Origin: a virus
DNA length: 63,863 nt
Reading direction: 5' to 3' (one strand)
Virus record (IMG/VR): IMGVR_UViG_3300042905_003325
Location: 1 to 63,863 of that record
Shown piece after piece: positions 1-8,920 of this stretch. Numbering within the stretch: position 1 is the first letter of the stretch; every line of letters begins with the position of its first letter. The translations under genes were made by a program, and so were the position numbers. The notes below the pieces were generated by a model that had not been told where the DNA came from, ran no database searches, and saw only the letters and a list, made by a program, of their open reading frames with translations.

Positions 1-407
1 CTCTGTTGCTGCCTGGGCCATCACAAGACCGTGCGCTGCCCACACCACCACGCACAGTAAGAGAAGCCGTGGCCACACTCAGCAGTCGTGACCAAGTGTT
101 TCTACGTGACAATGCGCTGAACTACAAAAAAAGTCAACAGGCCATAGATGAACTGGTTGACCACAAGATTCTGGTAAGCAACGTGCCTATCAAACTACAA
201 ACCATGCTGGAAAAGAAACTGCTCACACGCAATTTTGACCAATCAGTTGAATGGTATAATCAGTGGGTAGAAAGTCGAGGCCTTGGTGAACCCTATACCG
301 AACAACAGTTACTGGATCACAGTCGCCAGGAACTCAGGCGTTTTCACGACGTACCACTATTGGAACATGATTCTGATCAAACAAACACCGGGTCCAGATG
401 TAATTGA
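1..407 (+). CDS. 3' part of an unrecognised phage protein (5' end outside window)
   Basis: The reading frame is open from the first bases of the window and stops at 405-407, so the start lies upstream. About 134 residues are visible: a Pro-rich opening, then a mostly helical, charged stretch rich in Gln, Glu and Arg (for example VEWYNQWVESRGLGEPY). I see no catalytic motif and do not recognise the family. Its last 31 bases overlap the 3' end of the convergent oxygenase gene on the other strand. Because of the truncation, function cannot be inferred. Confidence 0.5.
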   Translation, partial: LLLPGPSQDRALPTPPRTVREAVATLSSRDQVFLRDNALNYKKSQQAIDELVDHKILVSNVPIKLQTMLEKKLLTRNFDQSVEWYNQWVESRGLGEPYTEQQLLDHSRQELRRFHDVPLLEHDSDQTNTGSRCN

Positions 408-1051
408 TTGATCCGTTGTTTGGTAATACCAGTGGCACGCCCTGTGATTTGCAGTGTGGGTCGCGGTGTGTGACTGGCATTGGCAGTGGCATGTGGAACG
501 TTGGGCCAATCAAACCAGTGGAAGTCTCCGGCCTGCCAGTGTGTGTATTGATAGGTTCCATAGCAGTAAAACTGTCCGGGCTCCCAGTCTGCGAGCATCA
601 CAACAAATCTAAACACATCTTCAGCACGGTCTGCATATTCATACAGTTTGTCTATGTGTAGATTAAACATCTGTCCGGTGCGTTGTATGTGTATCTGACT
701 ACGACAATTTTCCATGCCAAAGTATTCAATCATGCGAGCAAACACAGGCACTTGATCCGGATAATCCATGCGATCAGTGAGCACTAGATCAGGATCGGCT
801 CCCACTGACTCAAGGTCATAGAGCTCTTGAGCCAACATAGGACTCACACGAGACTGTCCTTGATAATTCTTGCGAGTGCTCCAGGTCACACTGTGAGTTT
901 GTTGCAGCACCTGATCAAGTTCCTGAGACCAGTCGCCCACAAACCTGCCCATGAGATGTATGTAATCGCCTGCTTGATCGTATGTTGTGTTATCAAAATG
1001 ATAGTTGCTGCGCTGTTTGCACCACTGCCAAGAACTTGAATCGTTAGACAT
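377..1051 (-). CDS. 2OG-Fe(II) oxygenase-like / aspartyl-hydroxylase-like protein
   Basis: A 224-residue protein with the metal-ligand pattern of double-stranded beta-helix oxygenases: an HxD motif in NLHIDKLYEYAD (about residues 131-142), then a distal His in NVPHATANASHTPRPTLQ, where the Arg would bind 2-oxoglutarate. The family uses Fe(II), O2 and 2-oxoglutarate to hydroxylate small molecules, glycans or side chains; the substrate here is unknown. The ATG at 1051 has a GGAGC Shine-Dalgarno and overlaps the stop of the upstream sulfotransferase-like gene, so it is the last gene of the seven-gene leftward operon. Assignment rests on motif pattern only. Confidence 0.7.
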   Translation of the reverse strand: MSNDSSSWQWCKQRSNYHFDNTTYDQAGDYIHLMGRFVGDWSQELDQVLQQTHSVTWSTRKNYQGQSRVSPMLAQELYDLESVGADPDLVLTDRMDYPDQVPVFARMIEYFGMENCRSQIHIQRTGQMFNLHIDKLYEYADRAEDVFRFVVMLADWEPGQFYCYGTYQYTHWQAGDFHWFDWPNVPHATANASHTPRPTLQITGRATGITKQRINQLHLDPVFV

Positions 1052-1682
1052 TTCTTGCTCCCAGGACTTTTACTTCGATGTCATGATATTCATATACCTG
1101 CTTGTGCGAGGAAAGAGTGGGAGCCGAAATACCCAGAGCAGCACACAGCTCGATGTTGTTTTTGGGTTCAACACCAGGTTGCTGTCGCCATACCATGCTG
1201 ATGTCACCATTTTGCTGTTCAATACGATGCGCCATCACACGCAGGTCTTTGTAGTATGCACTGTAGTCTGGATAGGTAATATCAAAATGTCCGCATTTTA
1301 CCCACCAGCCCAGGCAGGCGTCATCGGAACGATGTACCATGATCACCGGCGAGTCAGGCCAGTGTGTGCGTAGATACGCTATGTTGTGTGCAAACACATG
1401 ACTGCGAATAATTCTAACGCCTGTGCCTGAAAAAGGCCGATCAAATTCTGCCTCGCACTCCTTGCGAGTGTGTCCTTCAATGCGATCAAACCAGTCGCCA
1501 AATTCCATGCCAGGGTCAAAATAGCTGCCCAGATGCATCAAATCCATGTGTCCGTTGGCATCATGATAGTAGGTGCGGGCATGACTAAAATCCGAACGAT
1601 CTATGTCACGGCTGTAGTAGATATTTTTTATTACCGAACTCCATTTACTACCCGGCGCACCTGTTACAAAAATATATTTCAT
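1044..1682 (-). CDS. Sulfotransferase-like P-loop protein
   Basis: A 212-residue protein starting MKYIFVTGAPGSKWSS, which matches the 5'-phosphosulfate-binding loop of sulfotransferases. VIMVHRSDDACLGWW in the second half resembles the 3'-phosphate-binding segment, where Arg and Ser contact the PAPS 3'-phosphate. Family members move sulfuryl groups from PAPS to sugars, proteins or lipids. The start chosen is the ATG at 1682, which overlaps the upstream stop as ATGA; an in-frame upstream extension lies inside the neighbour and is unlikely. Its position directly after an APS-kinase-like gene suggests donor-making and transfer are coupled. The donor might not be PAPS. Confidence 0.72.
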   Translation of the reverse strand: MKYIFVTGAPGSKWSSVIKNIYYSRDIDRSDFSHARTYYHDANGHMDLMHLGSYFDPGMEFGDWFDRIEGHTRKECEAEFDRPFSGTGVRIIRSHVFAHNIAYLRTHWPDSPVIMVHRSDDACLGWWVKCGHFDITYPDYSAYYKDLRVMAHRIEQQNGDISMVWRQQPGVEPKNNIELCAALGISAPTLSSHKQVYEYHDIEVKVLGARNV

Positions 1683-2533
1683 TTCAAGCCCATTTGTGCT
1701 CTGATCGCAGTGCCGCTGATGCAATTAATATCATCATCAAATATTTCTTCTGCTGCGGTGTAGCCCACGTTGCGACCCCAGCCAATGTGTACGATGTTTG
1801 GCACCAGCTGAATTAGATATTGTCCTTGATACAGGGGATCTAGATCTCTGCGAATTCTTTCACGAACCTGTTCAAAACTAAATGGATTGGATCCCTGCCA
1901 GCCTTGTACATCTCGTATTTGAATTACCACCTGTCCGGTGCGTGTGATCAGCCTGTCAAACAGCGCACGATGTCCCTTATGCCAAGGTTGCCAACGTCCC
2001 AGCATCTGCACTGTTTCTCGGCGATAATCAAACGTAGGCCTACGACGTTGATCTAGTATGTGTTCACCTACAAACTCCACCCAACGTTCAGCATGCTGTT
2101 CTGTGATTCTAAAATCATATACTTCGGGAGGCACAAACGCACGATTGGTGTCCTCATAACGGCCTGCATCAATTGTATCAATCCACACAGTCCAGTCTGC
2201 TTTGAAGTTAGCACGCATTTCCGGCAGAGGCGCCACAAAATCACACAGGGCATAATCACCCGAGCATTTCATGGCAAATTCAAACATACGCAGACTCTGA
2301 CGAATACGTCCATCACGGCTGAAATCCCAGTCATTGAATCTGCGACGTATTTCATCAGCGTTGAACCAGTCCACTTGCACACGATAATCACCTATGTAGT
2401 TTTCCATGCTCAAGGCTCTTGAGGGGTCAATATTGTTGATAGTACCATGATTCTCAAGATACTGTTTCAAGCGTTCTGCGAAATAGGTTTTACCTGCACC
2501 AGGTAGTCCCATGACCAATATGCGTTCTGCCAT
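1679..2533 (-). CDS. APS kinase-like domain fused to nucleotidyltransferase-like domain
   Basis: A 284-residue two-domain enzyme. Residues 1-160 are an adenylylsulfate-kinase-type P-loop kinase: Walker A GLPGAGKT at 9-16, then NADEIRRRF followed by DFSRDGRIRQSLRM, like the DGDxVR and DRxxNIRR segments of CysC. Residues 173-284 are an HxGH-superfamily nucleotidyltransferase: GRWQPWHKGH with its HxGH at 185-188, and ISGTAIR near the C-terminus. Plausible roles are making a nucleotide-activated, 3'-phosphorylated donor for the flanking sulfotransferase-like proteins, or adenylylating an NMN-like substrate. Genes on both sides touch or overlap it. Domain assignment is firm; substrate is unknown. 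Confidence 0.8.
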   Translation of the reverse strand: MAERILVMGLPGAGKTYFAERLKQYLENHGTINNIDPSRALSMENYIGDYRVQVDWFNADEIRRRFNDWDFSRDGRIRQSLRMFEFAMKCSGDYALCDFVAPLPEMRANFKADWTVWIDTIDAGRYEDTNRAFVPPEVYDFRITEQHAERWVEFVGEHILDQRRRPTFDYRRETVQMLGRWQPWHKGHRALFDRLITRTGQVVIQIRDVQGWQGSNPFSFEQVRERIRRDLDPLYQGQYLIQLVPNIVHIGWGRNVGYTAAEEIFDDDINCISGTAIRAQMGLK

Positions 2534-3196
2534 TTATTTCTCCTGTAGTTTGTCAAGCACACGATCCACAAATTTTCTGCGTCCGGCTTGTATGTGTTTG
2601 TCTAACCAGTGATCTATCACTGCTGCCACGTATTTTCTGTTGGGGTTGGCATCAATCATTTCAGTGCTGTGTTCTAGATCTATGGGGAATCTCAGTAACC
2701 GTGACAGGTACTGTAGATAGTTTGTGTGCCAAAGAAAAAAGGTTTCATTGCTGATAAAATGACATTCAAAGTTTTCCAGCAGCTCGGATTGATAGTATTC
2801 GATTGCAGAATACAGCGTGACCTCACCTCCCACACGTTCTTGTTGATAGGCATTGATATTTTTATCCCGACTCACTATGGCCACTACTACCTCTACGCCA
2901 AAACTCTCAGCACGTTCAGCAACTTCGCGTATTTTTGGCAACTGTCTTACACCGTCATAGAAAAATGGTGCACTCACATTGGCAAAATAATATTGATGAT
3001 CCCGAAAATAATCAGCAGTCAAACGCTCTGGATGCACCCAAAATTCTGCAAATGGCTCTTGGTCACTGGGTACCCAATAATTGCTTTTCAGTGCGTCCCA
3101 GCCACGCACTTCAGGATGCCAGGAAAAAACTCTACTCAGCACATGATTTCCAGAGCCCTGAGGCCCTGTTAGGATCAATAGTCTTTTAGCGGGCAT
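2534..3196 (-). CDS. Sulfotransferase-like P-loop protein
   Basis: A 220-residue protein with an N-terminal nucleotide-binding loop, LLILTGPQGSGNHVLSRV, typical of P-loop sulfotransferase-like proteins. A later hydrophobic strand followed by SRDKN may be the 3'-phosphate-binding element. The C-terminal half is helical and unrecognised. ATG at 3196 is preferred over an upstream TTG at 3211; both lie inside the 3' end of the cupin gene. It ends one base before the APS-kinase fusion begins. It is probably a group transferase in the same pathway as its neighbours; acceptor unknown. Confidence 0.6.
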   Translation of the reverse strand: MPAKRLLILTGPQGSGNHVLSRVFSWHPEVRGWDALKSNYWVPSDQEPFAEFWVHPERLTADYFRDHQYYFANVSAPFFYDGVRQLPKIREVAERAESFGVEVVVAIVSRDKNINAYQQERVGGEVTLYSAIEYYQSELLENFECHFISNETFFLWHTNYLQYLSRLLRFPIDLEHSTEMIDANPNRKYVAAVIDHWLDKHIQAGRRKFVDRVLDKLQEK

Positions 3197-3848
3197 ATCG
3201 TTGTTGGCCAATATAGGTACGGATTTTTAATGGATTTACTTCGTCTGTAGGACCTGTGCCCGAATCTGGAGCAAACACAAATAAAACCACGTCTTCGTCG
3301 TAAGGACATGTAAAATTATGCAGAACATTACGCTGCAGAAAAAACGCATCACCCTGTTTTAATGGAAAATCGCTGTTGTCCAATTCAACTAGTCCACGGC
3401 CTTTGAGTACCATGCCCACACGATGACTAGGATGGGTGTGTAGGGTCTGCGTCATGCCCGCAGGAAAATGAACGTAGTTGATAACAGGATCACCCAGTCT
3501 ACCTGGATTCACCGCAGTGGTGTTAGTGCCACCATCTATATAACTTAAATTACCTTGTCCTAGTTGATCCTGAACATAGTAACGACTTTCTAGCAAACGC
3601 AGTCCTAGATATTCAACGACCACTGCGCTGCCACGTGCGCACTTGATTGTAAAGTGATTATTAACACACAGCGCAGCATCAACATCTTCAAATTTGACAT
3701 TATCGCTGTAGTAACTGGCATTCTGCAACATGATATAGTATGTGCCACGAGTATAATCAAACGCACGACTTTCGCCTGTTTCTAGTTTGATAATTCGCAA
3801 AGGCCAGCGATCCTGAGTTTCAAACACACCTTGAATATTGATCATCAT
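3186..3848 (-). CDS. Cupin-domain protein
   Basis: A 220-residue protein whose C-terminal half is a conserved cupin barrel: HFPAGMTQTLHTHPSHRVGMVL gives the HxH(x)n pattern, followed by GxxxxxxxGDAFFLQRNVLHNF with the late His ligand. The N-terminal half looks like a degenerate second barrel, so it may be bicupin. Cupins act as isomerases, dioxygenases or sugar-modifying enzymes; no specific reaction can be assigned. The start overlaps the stop of the amidotransferase-like gene (ATGA), which shows translational coupling within the operon. Confidence 0.75.
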   Translation of the reverse strand: MMINIQGVFETQDRWPLRIIKLETGESRAFDYTRGTYYIMLQNASYYSDNVKFEDVDAALCVNNHFTIKCARGSAVVVEYLGLRLLESRYYVQDQLGQGNLSYIDGGTNTTAVNPGRLGDPVINYVHFPAGMTQTLHTHPSHRVGMVLKGRGLVELDNSDFPLKQGDAFFLQRNVLHNFTCPYDEDVVLFVFAPDSGTGPTDEVNPLKIRTYIGQQRYAR

Positions 3849-4393
3849 AGTTTTATTACCTGTTGAATTTCTGCTGGAATAAATGGTGCTTTCATGCGTT
3901 CTGGATGCCAGATTATTCCAGCCAATAATCCGTCAATCCAGGCTTCACAGTTTCCGTCATCATCAGTGGCCAAGACCCGGGCAGCATTGTGGGCTCGTCC
4001 TATGGTTTGATCATGATGACTGTTGACCATGATACGTCTGCCTGCATAGTTTATTTCGTGAACAGTGTCACTGTGTCCATCTGTGCCAGTCACGGTGCCT
4101 CCCAGCACATCTGTGAGCAACATAGCACCATGACAAATGCCCAGTATGGGTTTGAAACTCTGCATCATGATAGTGGCAACCTTGAGTTCTGTGCGTCTAC
4201 GCACTGCACTGTCATCACCACCGGTTATTATAAGACAATCAAGATTTGCACACAGCTCTTGATAATCGTAGTCTTTGGTATTGGGAATTAAAAAGAGCTT
4301 ATGACCATCTAGAAATTCGTACCACACTTGCTCTAGTGAGTCATAAGCCCTACCTCTGTGATATAGGACTCGTTGTGTAAGTCCTATGCGCAA
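3845..4393 (-). CDS. Class I glutamine-amidotransferase-like hydrolase
   Basis: A 182-residue class I GATase fold protein. The nucleophile elbow GICHGA places the catalytic Cys at about residue 87; WHPER supplies His163 and Glu165. ITGGDD forms the oxyanion-side loop. The opening RIGLTQRV plus a DSLEQVWYEFL segment resembles stand-alone gamma-glutamyl hydrolases of capsule loci, including Campylobacter Cj1417, which releases CDP-phosphoramidate from CDP-glutamine. I choose a TTG start at 4393, immediately after the ferritin-like stop (TAAATTG), because family members begin there. Upstream in-frame ATGs lie deep in the neighbour. No synthetase domain is attached, so it acts alone or with a partner. 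Confidence 0.75.
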   Translation of the reverse strand: MRIGLTQRVLYHRGRAYDSLEQVWYEFLDGHKLFLIPNTKDYDYQELCANLDCLIITGGDDSAVRRRTELKVATIMMQSFKPILGICHGAMLLTDVLGGTVTGTDGHSDTVHEINYAGRRIMVNSHHDQTIGRAHNAARVLATDDDGNCEAWIDGLLAGIIWHPERMKAPFIPAEIQQVIKL

Positions 4394-4394
4394 T

Positions 4395-5093
4395 TTACCA
4401 ACCGTAGGCTTCTGATACCAGCTTACGACCTGCTTCGGCCGCAGTGGTGTTACGGCAGCTGATGTCATACAGATCACGACGCATTGCACTCACTAGTTTT
4501 TCAATACGTGCTTGTTCTTCTGCGCTTTCAACCAATTGAGCCAGTTTACGTGCACCAATCTTGCTGTGAAAGCCTTCGTCTCTAGCAATTTTAGCATAGC
4601 GAGTGGCAATGTATTGATCTTCAATGCAGTCTGCCATTTCGTTCCACACAGCTTCAGCACGACCTTCTGCCACTAGCTGATATGCTGCCAGTGCGGCTTC
4701 GTCGTTTTGTGCGCCGTATTTTTCCAATAGACCAGCGCCCTTGGCAGTGGGCTTGGCTGTTTCACGAGCAATGGCTGCTTCAACATCAACTTCTGAACCT
4801 TGAATGTGTTCAATAACTTCTTTGACCATGCGGAAATGCACAGCTTCGTCATGCGCCTGCTGTGTTAGCAATTGCAGTTCAACTGGATCAGTGTCAGCGG
4901 GCAGGTTAGCAATGGCCTGGCTGATTTCTACCATGTTCATGCGCTCGTTTACCATGCGACCAACAAAATGGTCTACCAGTTCTTGCTGGCTGGGCTGGCT
5001 TTCAAAGTAGGCACGAACATTGTGACGACTGGCCTCAAACAGAGCTGAGTTTTCGGCACGAATTTTTTCAACAAATTGTTTTCCTGTTAACAT
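4395..5093 (-). CDS. Ferritin-like diiron-carboxylate protein
   Basis: A 232-residue, almost wholly helical protein. Two ExxH motifs, in QQAHDEAVHFRMV and IARDEGFHSKIG, plus single Glu residues in the helices before each (NERMNMVEIS and AEAVWNEM), give the four-helix diiron site of the ferritin-like superfamily. It is longer than ferritin or rubrerythrin and closer in layout to diiron oxygenases or oxidases. ATG at 5093 follows an AGGAG Shine-Dalgarno. It is the first gene of the leftward seven-gene operon and diverges from a methyltransferase gene. It may oxidise the group that the rest of the operon transfers; this is inference. Confidence 0.68.
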   Translation of the reverse strand: MLTGKQFVEKIRAENSALFEASRHNVRAYFESQPSQQELVDHFVGRMVNERMNMVEISQAIANLPADTDPVELQLLTQQAHDEAVHFRMVKEVIEHIQGSEVDVEAAIARETAKPTAKGAGLLEKYGAQNDEAALAAYQLVAEGRAEAVWNEMADCIEDQYIATRYAKIARDEGFHSKIGARKLAQLVESAEEQARIEKLVSAMRRDLYDISCRNTTAAEAGRKLVSEAYGW

Positions 5094-5185
5094 GATTTCT
5101 CCTAGGATATATATGTGGAAACACAAGGGGATAAAATTTTTTACGGCTTTGTGTACAAATATTTAGTCCATTTAGAAAAAATTCA
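5094..5185. promoter_or_regulatory. Divergent intergenic region between diiron gene and methyltransferase
   Basis: These 92 bases separate two divergent genes. The leftward side carries TATATATATCC just before the AGGAG ribosome-binding site. A CTAAATA element, similar to the late-promoter core, lies on the minus strand near 5159-5165. No confident -35/-10 pair is seen, so the region is annotated as regulatory by position only. Confidence 0.35.
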
Positions 5186-5926
5186 ATGAATACCAAAATT
5201 TTTCGTTTGATACTGGAAAATCTTCAGCAGAGTTTTGGCCTAGCCAGATACCGAAACTTGGCCAGTGGGTTTGACCAAAGCACACAGGTGCACACATTGC
5301 CATGGACTCCTGCACGATATAAAAAGTTCAAAGACAATATCGAACGCGAACTACAGCTCTCCTGTGATTTTGTAGGCACCCTGAATGAAATTGTGCATGA
5401 CCTTGACACTCGTTACAGTGCAAGATTCTTTGGAGAGATCTGGAAACCTAGAACCGACGAATATACCTACACAGGCTGGGCTCTGGCAGACGAAATCAAC
5501 AAACACAATCCACGGTCAGTGCTGGACGTAGGCTGTGGATATCATCCATTCAAAGGCCGAATTCAAAATCTAATAGGTATTGATCCCTATAACAACTGTG
5601 CTGACTATCAAGTGGATATTCTAGAATATCAGGTGCCTCCTGAATCGCATGATCATATCATTGCTCTTGGCAGCATTAATTTCAACAGTCGCGATGATAT
5701 TCAGGCGCGGATCGCACACTGTGTGAATTTATTGACGCCGGGTGGACACATGTACCTGCGGGTGAATCCAGGCATTGCTCATGCTGCTGGACCCTGGGTA
5801 GATATTTTTCCTTGGGATTTTGCCACAGTAAAACAATTTGAAACTGAGTTTGCACTGCATCTTGCTACCTTTAAAAAAGACAGCAACAGCCGACTGTATT
5901 TTGAATATGTTAAATCAACGACCTAG
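5186..5926 (+). CDS. Class I SAM-dependent methyltransferase-like protein
   Basis: A 246-residue protein. SVLDVGCGYHPFKGRI near residues 112-127 is motif I of Rossmann methyltransferases, followed by an acidic GIDPYNN strand end and, later, LLTPGGHMYLRV, the usual strand before motif post-III. The first 90 residues form an extension with no known motif. Family members methylate small molecules, sugars, proteins or nucleic acids; the acceptor cannot be read from the sequence. Its 3' end overlaps the convergent small Ala/Pro-rich gene by 12 bases. It stands divergent to the seven-gene operon and may belong to the same pathway. Confidence 0.75.
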   Translation: MNTKIFRLILENLQQSFGLARYRNLASGFDQSTQVHTLPWTPARYKKFKDNIERELQLSCDFVGTLNEIVHDLDTRYSARFFGEIWKPRTDEYTYTGWALADEINKHNPRSVLDVGCGYHPFKGRIQNLIGIDPYNNCADYQVDILEYQVPPESHDHIIALGSINFNSRDDIQARIAHCVNLLTPGGHMYLRVNPGIAHAAGPWVDIFPWDFATVKQFETEFALHLATFKKDSNSRLYFEYVKSTT

Positions 5927-6241
5927 CATGCCAGCCAACTGTTGAAGGCGTTTCATCACACGCTCTTCTAGTTCGGCCTGACTTTCCTGTGCTGCTGACT
6001 GTGCCGCGGCAGCTGATTGAGCAGCTGGTTGTGCGGCCTTGGCCTGTTGTGCTTGTTGTGCAGGTTGACCAGTGGGCTGTGGTTTGGCTGTGCTGGGCGC
6101 AGGCTTTGGACTGGCTATCACTGCCTTGGCTGCATCACCAGATGTGTCCACAGTGGGAGGCACTGGTACTCCACCAGCTGCTGGAACTTTACCAGGTGGC
6201 TGTGTGATAGTCTGTTCCATGATCAAGTCAAGTAATAGCAT
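5915..6241 (-). CDS. Small Ala/Pro/Gln-rich phage protein
   Basis: A 108-residue low-complexity protein, dominated by Ala, Pro and Gln in the middle and ending in a charged helix (ELEERVMKRLQQLAGMLGR). No enzyme motif. The ATG at 6241 has an AGGAA ribosome-binding site inside the preceding gene's end. It closes a three-gene leftward operon of T4-like proteins. Its composition suits a linker, scaffold or virion-associated role, but this is a guess. Confidence 0.55.
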   Translation of the reverse strand: MLLLDLIMEQTITQPPGKVPAAGGVPVPPTVDTSGDAAKAVIASPKPAPSTAKPQPTGQPAQQAQQAKAAQPAAQSAAAAQSAAQESQAELEERVMKRLQQLAGMLGR

Positions 6242-6243
6242 TT

Positions 6244-6786
6244 TTAGATTCCTGCTGCGTTCTGCAACTGTCTTAGTAACCTATCTCTTTCGTGTATAGG
6301 TTTGGTGTCAAGTCCAGCTCGCTGACGCCATTCATTTAGATCTGATTCTTTTTTGGCGCGGTATGCAGCAGGAGTCAACGGCACCAGCTGATCAAATTCA
6401 TCACGTGAAAATGGCTGTTCCTTGCCCTCGTAGTGCATGACCCAATCATCTAGTTTGTACTCTGTGAGTGTTTCAAGATCTCGTAGTAGGTCTTGCACCT
6501 TGGCACCTGCGGTGCTACGACGCAGAATTTCAATGTACACTAGATATCTGTTGGGCTTGATTTCACCTGGCGATCTATCTGCGTCTAGTACAAAATCATA
6601 GCCTTTTTCAAACCAGTTCATGAGATCCTTGGCGGCTTGCTGGTCGCGCAGATAAAAACTGATCACAATCACATCATCATCATCGCCCATTTTGCTGCTA
6701 AATTCATCGATGTGAATAGTGGGTTTCATCATGCCCACGAGATCCTTGTATTCCAAGGATTCAAAAATTGGCTGTAGATCAGACAT
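6244..6786 (-). CDS. Conserved T4-like phage protein, unknown function
   Basis: A 180-residue soluble protein starting MSDLQPIFESLEYKDL, with an acidic patch GDDDDV and a helical C-terminus. ATG at 6786 is chosen because AGGAG stands at the right distance and the start overlaps the upstream stop. The layout, with a larger acidic protein upstream and a small Ala-rich protein downstream, resembles conserved structural or assembly gene sets in marine T4-like phages. I recognise no catalytic motif. Confidence 0.6.
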   Translation of the reverse strand: MSDLQPIFESLEYKDLVGMMKPTIHIDEFSSKMGDDDDVIVISFYLRDQQAAKDLMNWFEKGYDFVLDADRSPGEIKPNRYLVYIEILRRSTAGAKVQDLLRDLETLTEYKLDDWVMHYEGKEQPFSRDEFDQLVPLTPAAYRAKKESDLNEWRQRAGLDTKPIHERDRLLRQLQNAAGI

Positions 6787-7381
6787 TGATCGCTCCTGCT
6801 GCACCAGGCTGCGGTTGAGCCTGCGGTGCTGCCAAGGCCTGCTGTGCAGGTGAGGCAGATTGATCTTGATACTGTTCTTGATCCAGGTCGTCTTCATAGG
6901 CTTGATCCAGATCTGCTAGATCTATTTCCTCGTCTTCAAATTCCACGGAGCCTGTGCGTATGTCGCTGATCAAGGCCTTGGGCATGGTGATTTCCACAAG
7001 CCAAATGGGTTTTTCTATGATACGTGCTTTCTTGGTACCAGGAATATAATCACCTGGATCTTGAATTTTCACAGGAATTTTGATCTGGGTTTTTTTGAAT
7101 TCAATATTACAGTCAAATGGCAGCAGTCTTTTGGCACCACGCGGATCAGGCATGAGTTTTTCCGGCCACATAAATGTGCAGCTCACGGTGTATTTTCCAA
7201 CATCTGGTCCCTGCACCAGCTCGCCCAGGCTCCAGTTGCGAAATGCATAAAGATCCAGTTCGTCAAGCACACGCTCAAAGTCCAGCAAAGTCAGCAGGCT
7301 ATTTTGACTAACGTAGATATTTTTTATATTCTGGGCTACGTTCCAGTAATCTCTGTGATCGGAAAAAAGGTCTTTGTCCAT
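6779..7381 (-). CDS. Conserved T4-like phage protein with acidic tail
   Basis: A 200-residue protein starting MDKDLFSDHRDYWNVAQN. A well-ordered beta-rich body (SCTFMWPEKLMPDPRG, then a PIWLVEITMP strand) is followed by a very acidic stretch (EFEDEEIDLADLDQ) and a Gln/Ala/Pro-rich tail. Probably an assembly or virion protein; the function is not known to me. The start has no Shine-Dalgarno. Instead, a late-promoter element AATAAATA ends five bases before the ATG, so the message is probably leaderless. Confidence 0.6.
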   Translation of the reverse strand: MDKDLFSDHRDYWNVAQNIKNIYVSQNSLLTLLDFERVLDELDLYAFRNWSLGELVQGPDVGKYTVSCTFMWPEKLMPDPRGAKRLLPFDCNIEFKKTQIKIPVKIQDPGDYIPGTKKARIIEKPIWLVEITMPKALISDIRTGSVEFEDEEIDLADLDQAYEDDLDQEQYQDQSASPAQQALAAPQAQPQPGAAGAINV

Positions 7382-7521
7382 GTTCTTATTTATTGACTCT
7401 GTCAAGGTGCTGGGTTTTAGGAAAATTACTGACAAGCTCTTTACTTATGATGCTTGACCATGCAGATACATCAGCACACATAGACCTACGCAACAGTCTA
7501 AATATCCATGGAGGTAGCGAC
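7382..7521. promoter_or_regulatory. Divergent control region upstream of phoH
   Basis: These 140 bases separate the leftward assembly operon from rightward phoH. They hold a short perfect inverted repeat, TTGAC-TCT-GTCAA, at 7394-7406 and, on the plus strand, a TTGACC hexamer near 7452 without a convincing -10. The phoH ribosome-binding site GGAGG is at 7510-7514. Confidence 0.35.
7387..7394 (-). promoter_or_regulatory. T4-type late promoter core, leaderless arrangement
   Basis: The minus strand reads AATAAATA followed by five bases and then ATG at 7381. In T4 the TATAAATA element is followed about five to seven bases later by the transcription start, so transcription would begin at the start codon. 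The same geometry occurs at 34782 and 42435. Confidence 0.5.
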
Positions 7522-8280
7522 ATGATCAAAGGAGGATTGGAATTGTCTAGAGCCCGCGGAGCCAAAGCTCAAAAACGCATGACCCTGGTAGAACAAGATG
7601 TAAACAACATAAGTTTTTTCCCCAGCCAACACAACTCAAACCGTACCGTAGAACTTCGTCCCAAGAGCATAAATCAAGAACGCCTAGTGGTTAATCTACT
7701 AGATGAAAACACACCCATTGTGGTCACTGTGGGCCCTGCAGGCACTGGCAAAACCTATCTGACCATGCTGGCAGCTATTAGAGCACTGCGCAGCCGTCAG
7801 GTTGACAGATTGATTCTCACTAGACCAGCAGTGGGCGTTGAAGATGAAAAGCATGGATTTTTACCGGGTAATCTTGTGAGCAAAATGGAGCCATGGACTC
7901 GTCCATTGTTTGATGTGCTGCAGGAATATTATCACCAGCGAGATATCACTCGCATGATAGAAGATCAGATCATTGAAATCTCTCCCTTGGCCTATATGCG
8001 TGGGCGCACTTTCAAGCGATCTTGGATCATTGCTGACGAAATGCAAAACGCCACACCTGCACAGTTCAAAATGCTGCTCACTCGCATTGGTGAGGACAGC
8101 AAGATCACAGTTACGGGTGACACTGAACAAGCGGACCGGAATATCCAAACCAACGGTCTACTGGATCTTTGTCGCAGACTCAGCAGCGAAAAAGTCAATG
8201 GCCTAACACTTATTGAAATGGGCACCCGCGATATTCGACGTCACCCAATCATATCTGACATCCTAAAATTGTACTCATAA
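7522..8280 (+). CDS. phoH: PhoH-like ATPase
   Basis: A 252-residue PhoH-family P-loop ATPase. Walker A is GPAGTGKTYL; Walker B and the sensor region follow in SWIIADEMQNATPAQFKML and GDTEQADRN, all diagnostic for PhoH. The family is nearly universal in marine T4-like phages; it is linked to phosphate starvation in bacteria and to RNA metabolism, but its phage role is unproven. I choose ATG 7522 because GGAGG precedes it by seven bases; the longer open frame upstream is not needed. It is followed eight bases later by a sulfotransferase-like gene on the same strand. Confidence 0.93.
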   Translation: MIKGGLELSRARGAKAQKRMTLVEQDVNNISFFPSQHNSNRTVELRPKSINQERLVVNLLDENTPIVVTVGPAGTGKTYLTMLAAIRALRSRQVDRLILTRPAVGVEDEKHGFLPGNLVSKMEPWTRPLFDVLQEYYHQRDITRMIEDQIIEISPLAYMRGRTFKRSWIIADEMQNATPAQFKMLLTRIGEDSKITVTGDTEQADRNIQTNGLLDLCRRLSSEKVNGLTLIEMGTRDIRRHPIISDILKLYS

Positions 8281-8287
8281 GTACAGG

Positions 8288-8920
8288 ATGTTTAAAAATA
8301 GTGTGGCAGTACTGACACCGGGCCGCACAGGCTCGGTGTTATTAGCAAGTTATATTGCTCGAAGAAAATATCAAAGTTTGATAGTGCATCTTGAAAGTAA
8401 AGATGATCTAGACAAAATCCAATGGCTTAAAAACATTCCAACCTGTTTTCATAGCCATAACTTTTTTTCACCACAAGAGCTAGACTACGTGACACCAATA
8501 TACAGTGTGCGTAGAAATCTTGTGGAAGCCTTGGTTTCGCATGCTCTGTCCAATAGGCTAGAACTTTGGCACTTGGCCAGTCAAGATCAGCGACCCAATC
8601 TTGAACCTGTAATTCTCACACCAGAAGATGTAGATCCTGTGATTGAGAGTCAGCAACAGTGGTTTGATTTAAGTATCAAAAAGTTACACGCTCAAAGCGT
8701 TGTGGTAGTATATGAAGTAATGATTGACCTACTACCCTCTAACCAATTGATTTATCAAAAAACCTACCCTGACAAAAATTATTTGATCTCAAACTACGCT
8801 GATATTTCAGCTTATGTGAGAGATCATATTCCTAGGCAGATGTTGGAACAGCATGGGGAGTTTTGTGACTATCCTGCTCGGGTGGGTGTTCCGTCCCCGT
8901 ATTATCAGTTGTTGAACTAG
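8288..8920 (+). CDS. Sulfotransferase-like P-loop protein
   Basis: A 210-residue protein whose N-terminus SVAVLTPGRTGSVLLASYIA fits the 5'-phosphosulfate-binding loop of sulfotransferases (TPGRTGS in place of the P-loop). YSVRRNLVEALVSHALSN further in resembles the 3'-phosphate-binding helix. It is the third protein of this type in the window, after 1044-1682 and 2534-3196. It follows phoH closely and overlaps the convergent gene downstream by about 90 bases. Donor and acceptor are unknown. Confidence 0.65.
   Translation: MFKNSVAVLTPGRTGSVLLASYIARRKYQSLIVHLESKDDLDKIQWLKNIPTCFHSHNFFSPQELDYVTPIYSVRRNLVEALVSHALSNRLELWHLASQDQRPNLEPVILTPEDVDPVIESQQQWFDLSIKKLHAQSVVVVYEVMIDLLPSNQLIYQKTYPDKNYLISNYADISAYVRDHIPRQMLEQHGEFCDYPARVGVPSPYYQLLN

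Follow-up and report, generated by a model that had tools for sequence, protein, structure and literature searches.

What might a phage do with a tight run of genes for a ferritin-like diiron protein, a glutamine amidotransferase (GATase)-like hydrolase, a cupin, two sulfotransferase-like proteins, a kinase-nucleotidyltransferase fusion and a 2-oxoglutarate-type oxygenase? The question is raised by IMG/VR virus record IMGVR_UViG_3300042905_003325 (G000), whose 63,863 bases were analyzed whole and are called the window here, and in which seven minus-strand genes run from position 5093 down to 377 with every junction overlapping, abutting or 1 nucleotide (nt) apart. We found that this operon is one instance of a modular cassette that recurs among phages. 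As to its function, we tentatively favor, at a little short of even confidence, a phage auxiliary metabolic cassette that would oxidize a substrate and then attach a small anionic group, most likely sulfuryl, to it. The genes concerned are the following.

Positions 4395 to 5093, minus strand: diiron, a predicted ferritin-like diiron protein with ligands E50, E83xxH86, E143 and E173xxH176.
Positions 3845 to 4393, minus strand: GAT, a class I GATase/C26 hydrolase of the Cj1417-type clade, with C87-H163-E165.
Positions 3186 to 3848, minus strand: cupin, with a Cupin_2 domain at residues 125 to 191 (Pfam).
Positions 2534 to 3196, minus strand: ST1, a P-loop protein of modeled sulfotransferase fold with motifs GPQGSGNH and RD..I...QQ.R.
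Positions 1679 to 2533, minus strand: KinNT, a fusion of an adenosine 5'-phosphosulfate (APS)-kinase-like P-loop domain with an HxGH nucleotidyltransferase resembling nicotinamide mononucleotide adenylyltransferase (NMNAT) (Pfam and profiles).
Positions 1044 to 1682, minus strand: ST2, a P-loop protein of probable sulfotransferase fold by its model, with motif GAPGSKWSS.
Positions 377 to 1051, minus strand: 2OG, a putative Fe(II)/2-oxoglutarate-type oxygenase with H132xD134, H187 and R197 and no Pfam match.
Positions 5186 to 5926, plus strand: MT, a divergent S-adenosylmethionine (SAM)-methyltransferase-like gene (Pfam below the cutoff) and frequent partner of the cassette.

The seven leftward open reading frames (ORFs) and the divergent methyltransferase gene all lie where the preliminary description had placed them, and their junctions are as tight as it claimed. 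One nt separates the diiron stop (4395) from the TTG start of GAT (4393); the GAT stop (3845) and cupin ATG (3848) share an ATGA overlap, as do the KinNT stop (1679) and ST2 ATG (1682); the cupin stop (3186) and ST1 ATG (3196) overlap by 11 nt, with a longer ST1 start, TTG at 3211, listed too; the ST1 stop (2534) abuts the KinNT ATG (2533); and the ST2 stop (1044) and 2OG ATG (1051) overlap by 8 nt. An AGGAG lies five nt ahead of the ATG at 5093, which opens diiron, the first gene of the operon. All eight genes recur at 100% protein identity (BLAST) on two longer contigs of 166 and 110 kb.

Scans of IMG/VR gave at least 597 stretches for KinNT, 337 for diiron, 219 for ST2 and at least 579 for ST1. 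From each scan we analyzed the 80 best loci, a choice that favors close relatives, and discarded near-copies recognized by the 5-mers that their seed proteins share. Family labels come from hidden Markov models (HMMs) extended over three rounds with the fetched loci, and the counts may therefore include paralogues; flanks were 6 kb for diiron-seeded loci, many of them cut by contig ends, and 5 kb for ST1-seeded loci. Among the 61 nonredundant diiron-seeded loci, GAT was found in 56, MT in 53, ST2 in 52, 2OG in 45, ST1 in 41, TctC in 35, KinNT or a kinase in 18, cupin in 14 and TctA in 9. The 55 nonredundant ST2-seeded loci held 2OG (54), TctC (46), MT (42), ST1 (26), GAT (19), KinNT or a kinase (17), diiron (13), TctA (8) and cupin (2). 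Close spacing recurred as well: GAT directly followed diiron in 40 of the 60 diiron-seeded loci having a next gene, with a gap of 1 nt in 17 of these 40 (range, -95 to 13, longest ORF starts used); ST2 and 2OG were adjacent in 46 of 55 loci, overlapping by 4 nt in 39; and ST1 came after cupin in 29 of the 30 cupin copies, a count that keeps near-copies. The common order was MT / diiron, GAT, (TctA), TctC or cupin, ST2, 2OG, ST1, kinase, with order and content both varying. In the diiron-seeded set, cupin and Tct genes were nearly exclusive (13 loci with cupin only, 34 with Tct only, 1 with both and 13 with neither; Fisher P = 1.7e-5), and the window phage carries cupin in place of Tct genes.

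The ST1-seeded set, 77 loci before near-copy removal and with the window's phage and L271 left out, was dominated by a smaller core, MT-diiron-ST1-ST1. Its 57 nonredundant loci held two or more ST1 genes in 54 cases, diiron in 52, MT in 39, ST2 in 14, GAT in 4, KinNT in 2, 2OG and TctC in 1 each and cupin in none. Since these families lie together in contigs recovered from separate seeds, their association is more than chance. The search of environmental contigs for the same gene set that the preliminary description had suggested thus returned the set itself and similar orders, rather than unrelated orders only.

Three further features of these loci deserve mention. Loci L272 to L348 show a second architecture, in which ST1-ST1 is convergent with diiron-MT beside phage structural-looking genes. 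Phage-borne TctA and TctC (tripartite tricarboxylate transporter) are frequent in the cassette, TctC often without TctA (L176, 2255-3706, plus strand; L053, 5086-6078, plus strand). A gene that reads as SGNH-hydrolase-like often stands just upstream of MT (L053, 1625-2314, plus strand; cluster c7, 36 loci).

How far do the individual labels hold? Those of GATase and cupin were both upheld by Pfam above the cutoff (Cupin_2, E = 1.1e-13, for the latter), and MT matched methyltransferase models under it. The diiron label stood on its ligands rather than on Pfam: the window copy matches the ribonucleotide reductase small chain, AurF, Ferritin_2 and other models, all under the cutoff, and the residues E...ExxH...E...ExxH are invariant in 25 of 25 aligned proteins and, in the ST1-seeded set, in 63 of 63 rows with the window included, which supports a ferritin-like diiron protein. 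The oxygenase label likewise stands on residues, because Pfam gives no match for the window copy of 2OG; the HxD...H triad and distal Arg (H132, D134, H187 and R197) are invariant in 27 of 27 members. With sequence profiles, the PDB yielded nothing better than E = 0.18 for ST1, ST2, 2OG or diiron. In the copies of the Tct genes compared with Pfam, TctC scored 65.6 bits and TctA 286.6 bits; the TctC-like gene of L248 had no Pfam match at E = 0.01.

The claim that ST1 and ST2 are sulfotransferase-like was borne out by fold only, and more clearly for ST1, neither protein having a Pfam match beyond noise. The AlphaFold2 model of ST1 (mean predicted local distance difference test score, 91.2) had tyrosylprotein sulfotransferase-1 as its best Foldseek match (E = 3.2e-5, probability 1.00), and VIA gave Z scores of 11.8 to 4gox (root mean square deviation [RMSD], 3.8 Å; 171 residues aligned) and 11.3 to 5wri, with 9.1 for the best non-sulfotransferase row. 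In the viral fold library, the first match of ST1 was a phage protein whose name refers to a Zeta-toxin domain, and several sulfotransferase-named models stood lower. For the ST2 model (mean score, 87.1), VIA placed sulfotransferases first (Z = 11.3 to 5wrj; RMSD, 3.5 Å; 166 aligned) and adenylate kinases as the best non-sulfotransferase rows (Z = 9.0). By their models, then, ST1 appears to have the sulfotransferase fold and ST2 probably has it, less clearly. The ST1 motif is well kept, with GPQG.GNH in 137 of 138 rows (one gap) and both the R and the Q at R+8 in all 138. Further families that read as sulfotransferase-like, ST15, ST18 and c34, occur in these phages.

A bacterial origin of ST2 was considered and rejected: 12 genome-contig stretches matched the pattern and 2 encoded a relative, both on contigs of metagenome-assembled genomes (MAGs) judged to be phage derived. 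In these contigs (L247, Rhodobacteraceae; L248, Pelagibacter), cassette genes stand beside phage-like genes, and both are probably phage contigs binned into MAGs.

The donor-making step would fall to the kinase. KinNT has a P-loop and scores 23.2 bits against Pfam APS_kinase (PF01583; cutoff, 21.1 bits). The best PDB profile match of its N terminus is APS kinase 2yvu (E = 6.3e-9), APS kinase matches lie within residues 5 to 115, and 14 of 30 PDB profile hits are named APS kinase or 3'-phosphoadenosine 5'-phosphosulfate (PAPS) synthetase, none being a ribosylnicotinamide kinase. The C-terminal domain matches NMNATs within residues 165 to 239 (2qjt, E = 8.7e-8) and the archaeal hypothetical protein 1f9a (E = 1.5e-6); NCBIfam NMNAT models scored it far under their cutoffs. 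Residues H185xGH188 and S273xT275xxR278, which we take to be the HxGH and ISxTxxR motifs of NMNATs, are invariant in 22 KinNT rows. When ATP sulfurylase was considered as the identity of the fused domain, the best profile matches were NMNATs, in what is a sequence-level comparison within the HxGH superfamily. The kinase keeps an FS..R stretch like that of CysC; 14 phage rows have DTN at the place of the lid and NAD, DAD or NGD in place of DGD. Thus, of the proposed APS-kinase/nucleotidyltransferase fusion, the APS-kinase-like P-loop domain stood, without the KGLY lid, and the fused part proved NMNAT-like.

Kinase-only genes occupy the slot of the fusion within the cassette in 9 distinct copies, 5 of them adjoining ST1 (L207, cut by its contig end, is left out of this count). 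Among 24 GAT-bearing virus records, which may be fragments and include near-copies (G000/G001, G002/G014 and G008/G024 by their loci), 16 had a strong kinase match (E < 1e-40): 8 a fusion, 7 a kinase only and G008 both parts, in one 362-amino-acid (aa) frame. By place, 11 of the 16 matches lay in the fetched cassette stretch (7 fusions and 4 kinases only). It is common for the kinase to occur without the GATase, and vice versa. Five INPHARED phage records carry KinNT alone, at 33 to 37% identity. In Stenotrophomonas phage Bhz60, a KinNT relative (L085, 6001-6741, plus strand) overlaps a gene whose annotation names a NADAR domain, pointing tentatively to nucleotide or nicotinamide adenine dinucleotide (NAD) metabolism in other phages. 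Elsewhere, KinNT stands near genes that read as fibre-like, glycosyltransferase-like and sulfotransferase-like.

The preliminary description had also related the GATase to the Cj1417-type hydrolase, and this was sustained by way of operon relatives: the comparison ran through an NCBIfam model and plasmid-operon proteins rather than Campylobacter Cj1417 itself. GAT is a C26/class I GATase whose Cys-His-Glu is invariant in 27 of 27 members, all 27 of which match NF045546 (gamma-glutamyl-CDP-amidate hydrolase), the best NCBIfam family of GAT (best E, 3.3e-21). The window GAT scored 51.8 bits, far below the 250-bit cutoff; since three plasmid-operon GATs also reached only 75, 107 and 128 bits, missing this cutoff means little. 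A phage GAT profile gave seven operon GATs 93 to 123 bits, two Lactiplantibacillus hydrolases 76 and 66, PuuD 31 and the GuaA N terminus 19. In a tree with long branches and a rough bootstrap that had not settled, phage and operon GATs fell on one side of a branch (support, 91/80), with phage GATs alone at 99/99. By sequence, GAT thus appears to be kin to the Cj1417-type hydrolase as represented by NCBIfam and the plasmid operons, a statement about clade and not activity. Scanned directly as a pattern, the window GAT led to only 5 confirmed stretches in 3 loci, two being the window's own phage; the wider GAT set consists of HMM matches on loci fetched with other genes.

Three candidates were set aside. 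A plain PuuD- or GuaA-type enzyme was ruled out by the profile scores and tree; an amidoligase as the partner of GAT, given that Amidoligase_2 matched in 6 of 24 records, inside ORFs of 801 to 2,085 aa outside the cassette; and NF045545 as a sister model of NF045546, since it is actually HAH_0734_fam and matched in 0 of 12 virus records.

From the gene content and order, the active-site residues, the GATase clade and the folds of ST1 and, more weakly, ST2, we infer the reactions, donor, substrate and benefit to the phage as follows. The diiron enzyme, and 2OG where present, would place a hydroxyl (or N-hydroxyl) on the substrate. The group that ST1 and ST2 then transfer would most likely be sulfuryl and come from a PAPS-type 3'-phosphonucleotide donor, which the kinase, alone or fused to the nucleotidyltransferase, would make. 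The GATase might take glutamate off a gamma-glutamyl-N-linked intermediate, the methyltransferase might cap the product, and the substrate could be supplied through import by TctC/TctA or through synthesis inside the cell by the cupin. Since some phages carry kinase-only copies, the nucleotide step may come from the host. A host-supplied step fits APS better than CDP-glutamine, because sulfate adenylylation is common in bacteria and glutamine kinase is not; for this reason we put plain or near-plain sulfuryl transfer first.

Several observations weigh against this assignment. For ST2, the top Foldseek match is a UMP-CMP kinase (E = 0.023); the best sulfotransferase ranks third (E = 0.051), and none falls below E = 0.05. 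ST1 seems to have Gly at the Arg/Lys place of PRSG/PKSG and Gln at R+8, where Ser is known, if the canonical 5'-phosphosulfate-binding Arg/Lys and 3'-phosphate-binding Arg/Ser positions, presumed rather than derived from a structure, are rightly placed on it. The phage kinase has no KGLY lid, a motif present in both CysC and the kinases of the operons (14 phage rows versus CysC and 4 operon kinases), and the phage KinNT profile gives CysC only 17.6 bits and the kinase of the Smac51 operon 14.6. A kinase or KinNT was found in only 18 of the 61 diiron-seeded and 2 of the 57 ST1-seeded loci, and 5 of the 16 strong kinase matches lie elsewhere in their record, outside the fetched cassette stretch. 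The 55 nonredundant KinNT-seeded loci had few cassette genes (2OG 7, TctC 6, MT 5, ST2 5, GAT 3, ST1 3, diiron 2, cupin 1 and TctA 0), so KinNT mostly lives elsewhere. Finally, the roles given to GAT, cupin and the Tct genes are guesses.

Another group is conceivable, given the loss of the lid, the apparent changes in the donor-site residues of ST1 and the clade to which the GATase belongs. The oxygenase-made hydroxyl might receive a group not known before that is activated on a 3'-phosphonucleotide, such as a sulfamate or another N-linked group freed by the Cj1417-like hydrolase; it would be neither plain sulfate nor phosphoramidate, and the modular cassette for it would have spread through uncultivated phages. 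We consider this unlikely, if worth keeping in view.

We judge it just as doubtful that KinNT is a nucleotide- or NAD-salvage enzyme, NadR-like with its domains reversed, that sits in the cassette by chance while the remaining genes use host PAPS for oxidation and transfer. Such an enzyme would account for the NMNAT matches of the C-terminal domain (2qjt and 1f9a), the overlap with a NADAR gene in Bhz60 and the presence of KinNT in at least 597 viral stretches, with few cassette genes in the 55 nonredundant loci of the best 80. The named kinases among the PDB hits argue the other way, being APS kinases or PAPS synthetases in 14 of 30 cases and never ribosylnicotinamide kinase, as does the kinase domain that stands within the cassette without an NMNAT-like part.

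Less probable again is the modification of a macromolecule on the virion or host surface (tail fibre or O-antigen), for example hydroxylation plus tyrosine or glycan sulfation directed against competing phages. The closest solved folds do include tyrosylprotein and polyketide-type sulfotransferases, the ST1-ST1/diiron/MT copies lie among genes read as structural, and KinNT elsewhere neighbors fibre-like, glycosyltransferase-like and sulfotransferase-like genes. However, accessory hotspots of phages are found close to fibre genes in any case, and the many copies with TctC/TctA speak for a small carboxylate.

The preliminary description had likened the operon to the capsule phosphoramidate pathway of Campylobacter, in which Cj1415 is the kinase, Cj1416 the cytidylyltransferase and Cj1417 the gamma-glutamyl-CDP-amidate hydrolase. 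A search of plasmids with the GAT of L053 matched 14 records at E = 1e-3, and we inspected 8 of the 11 non-lactobacillus records and 1 of the 3 lactobacillus records (H10/H11 and H18/H19 are near-copies). A PEP-utilizing (glutamine-kinase-type)/PPDK-type gene lay within 7 kb of GAT in 8 of 8 non-lactobacillus loci, directly upstream in 7; a MobA-like nucleotidyltransferase was present in 7 of 8 (six annotated as phosphocholine cytidylyltransferase family, that of Smac51 by Pfam), and an adenylyl-sulfate kinase and a methyltransferase in 4 of 8. The Lactiplantibacillus locus inspected had none of these partner genes within 4 kb of GAT.

The phage records differ. The preliminary description saw no glutamine kinase in the window, which holds and extends to all 24 GAT-bearing virus records: PPDK_N (PF01326) and NF004508 each matched in 0 of 24, as did NTP_transferase (PF00483) for a cytidylyltransferase, whereas the operon proteins match the glutamine-kinase models (both of them) and nucleotidyltransferase models that the virus records fail. 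NTP_transf_3 (PF12804; E ≤ 0.001) matched in 2 of 24 records (G021 and G023), neither time in the cassette: one match is over the cutoff and far from the cassette, the other under it and ~5 kb away. The fused domain being NMNAT-like and no enzyme of the Cj1416 type (MobA-like, as judged from the plasmid operons) lying in the cassette, the proposed counterpart of the Campylobacter cytidylyltransferase did not survive. Profiles of phage MT, ST1, ST2, 2OG, diiron, cupin and TctC matched nothing among the bacterial operon proteins compared, the MT profile matching 0 of 3 operon methyltransferases. A 6-kb viral contig does end in a glutamine-kinase-like gene (29% identity; L268, 4237-6013, plus strand); its other ORFs include capsid-like and recombinase-like ones, and no cassette family is represented on it.

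A complete phosphoramidate pathway in the phage is therefore rejected, glutamine kinase and cytidylyltransferase not having been found in the 24 records. A phosphorus-nitrogen donor pathway could still be argued for if glutamine kinase came from the host or from an unrecognized enzyme: NF045546 is the best family of GAT, profile scores and tree join it to the operon GATs, and a kinase, a nucleotidyltransferase, a methyltransferase and P-loop transferases are all at hand. Against these stand the failed kinase and cytidylyltransferase models, the NTP_transf_3 matches outside the cassette, the unmatched operon methyltransferases, the absence of KGLY and the lack of any cassette family on the one viral contig found with a glutamine-kinase-like gene. 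The phosphoramidate route is thus weakened, and we regard it as improbable, a shade below surface modification; of the Campylobacter-like donor chemistry, the GATase clade and the APS-kinase-like domain endured, and the glutamine kinase and the Cj1416-type cytidylyltransferase did not. Least probable of all is that independent accessory genes share a hotspot but no pathway, which would explain the variable composition and the occurrence of ST1, KinNT, Tct and cupin each without the others but fits poorly with the recurrent close-spaced pairs, the exclusion between cupin and Tct, the similar orders in many contigs with different flanks and the company of MT, diiron and ST1 in both architectures.

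One more gene, absent from the preliminary description, converges on the operon of the window.

Positions 6 to 407, plus strand: 3' end of ST18, a convergent sulfotransferase-like gene whose ORF is open at its 5' end (contig end), assigned by layout.

A full ST18 copy in L082 (8443-9606, minus strand) occupies the same place, tail to tail with 2OG, which suggests that positions 6 to 407 are the cut 3' end of ST18; the term sulfotransferase-like is read from the ST18 N terminus. The window phage seems T4-like, judging from a PhoH gene (7393-8280, plus strand) and its neighbors. The motif TATAAATA, which we take to be the T4 late promoter, occurs twice in the window and not within the cassette (shuffle mean, 1.3). 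Positions 1 to 8500 hold 20 sigma-70-like sites (shuffle mean, 15.4) and 11 terminator-like sites (shuffle mean, 7.0).

Isolate phages offered few relatives. In INPHARED, which may leave out records very near the window, tblastn returned no record for the window GAT (E = 1e-5), for diiron or ST1 (E = 1e-3) or for a second ST1 (L311, one of the ST1-ST1 architecture), the queries not including 2OG, MT or cupin; diiron also had no tblastn match in plasmids (E = 1e-2). The TctC of L053 had one weak match (21.8%) in phage records, and weak relatives of ST2 came from the single-cell virus AG-345-D19, in two of its records. In this marine virus, an ST2-like gene lies a few kb from a psbA-like ORF (L249, 1543-2625 and 4962-5804, plus strand).

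We did not find the cassette described in the open-licence PMC literature on phage auxiliary genes, phosphoramidate, sulfotransferases or Tct. The phosphoramidate pathway and the genes for it come up in PMC6429109, PMC12409886 and PMC11924219, and a table in PMC6359870 has tctA among its abbreviations. If our reading is correct, a common accessory set of uncultivated phages, of which no cultivated example was found here, would be a pathway of oxidation plus group transfer; phages would gain chemistry so far tied to capsules or sulfation, which could explain the several sulfotransferase-fold genes and, in part, the phages' own kinase.

Among known systems, the nearest viral ones are alike in kind of gene. 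A passage of PMC4164917 reports 2OG-Fe(II) oxygenase and tctA genes, the same two kinds as here, in contigs of uncultivated SUP05 viruses, states the role of tctA as unknown and describes no cassette. For OM43 phages, PMC10580990 lists genes for an amidoligase, a GATase, a 2OG oxygenase and sulfotransferases, describing what phage sulfotransferases do as unclear; these genes resemble those of the cassette in kind, but the Pfam families named (PF13522, PF13640 and PF13469) differ.

NadR and phage NAD-salvage enzymes resemble KinNT in joining a kinase to an NMNAT-like domain; in KinNT, however, the domain order is reversed and the kinase is nearer to APS kinases by profile. With PAPS synthase and PAPS-dependent sulfotransferases (tyrosylprotein and curacin/olefin-synthase sulfotransferases), the cassette shares a kinase nearest to APS kinases and the fold of ST1 and, less clearly, ST2. 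PAPS synthase combines ATP sulfurylase with APS kinase, whereas the cassette kinase is without the KGLY lid and is fused to an NMNAT-like domain, and the donor-binding residues of ST1 seem to differ from those of known PAPS-dependent sulfotransferases. The O-methyl-phosphoramidate pathway of Campylobacter jejuni differs from the cassette in its glutamine kinase, not found in the 24 records, and in a nucleotidyltransferase of another superfamily; the cassette in turn has extra diiron, 2OG, cupin and Tct genes, and its methyltransferase and transferases are unrelated by profile to the operon proteins compared. Yet that pathway, like the similar plasmid operons of Azospirillum, Vibrio alfacsensis, Agrobacterium vitis, Roseovarius and Deltaproteobacterium Smac51, shares with the cassette a related gamma-glutamyl hydrolase, an APS-kinase-like kinase, a nucleotidyltransferase and a methyltransferase, and the C. 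jejuni pathway and the cassette would be alike in their proposed logic, the transfer of a group from a nucleotide carrier.

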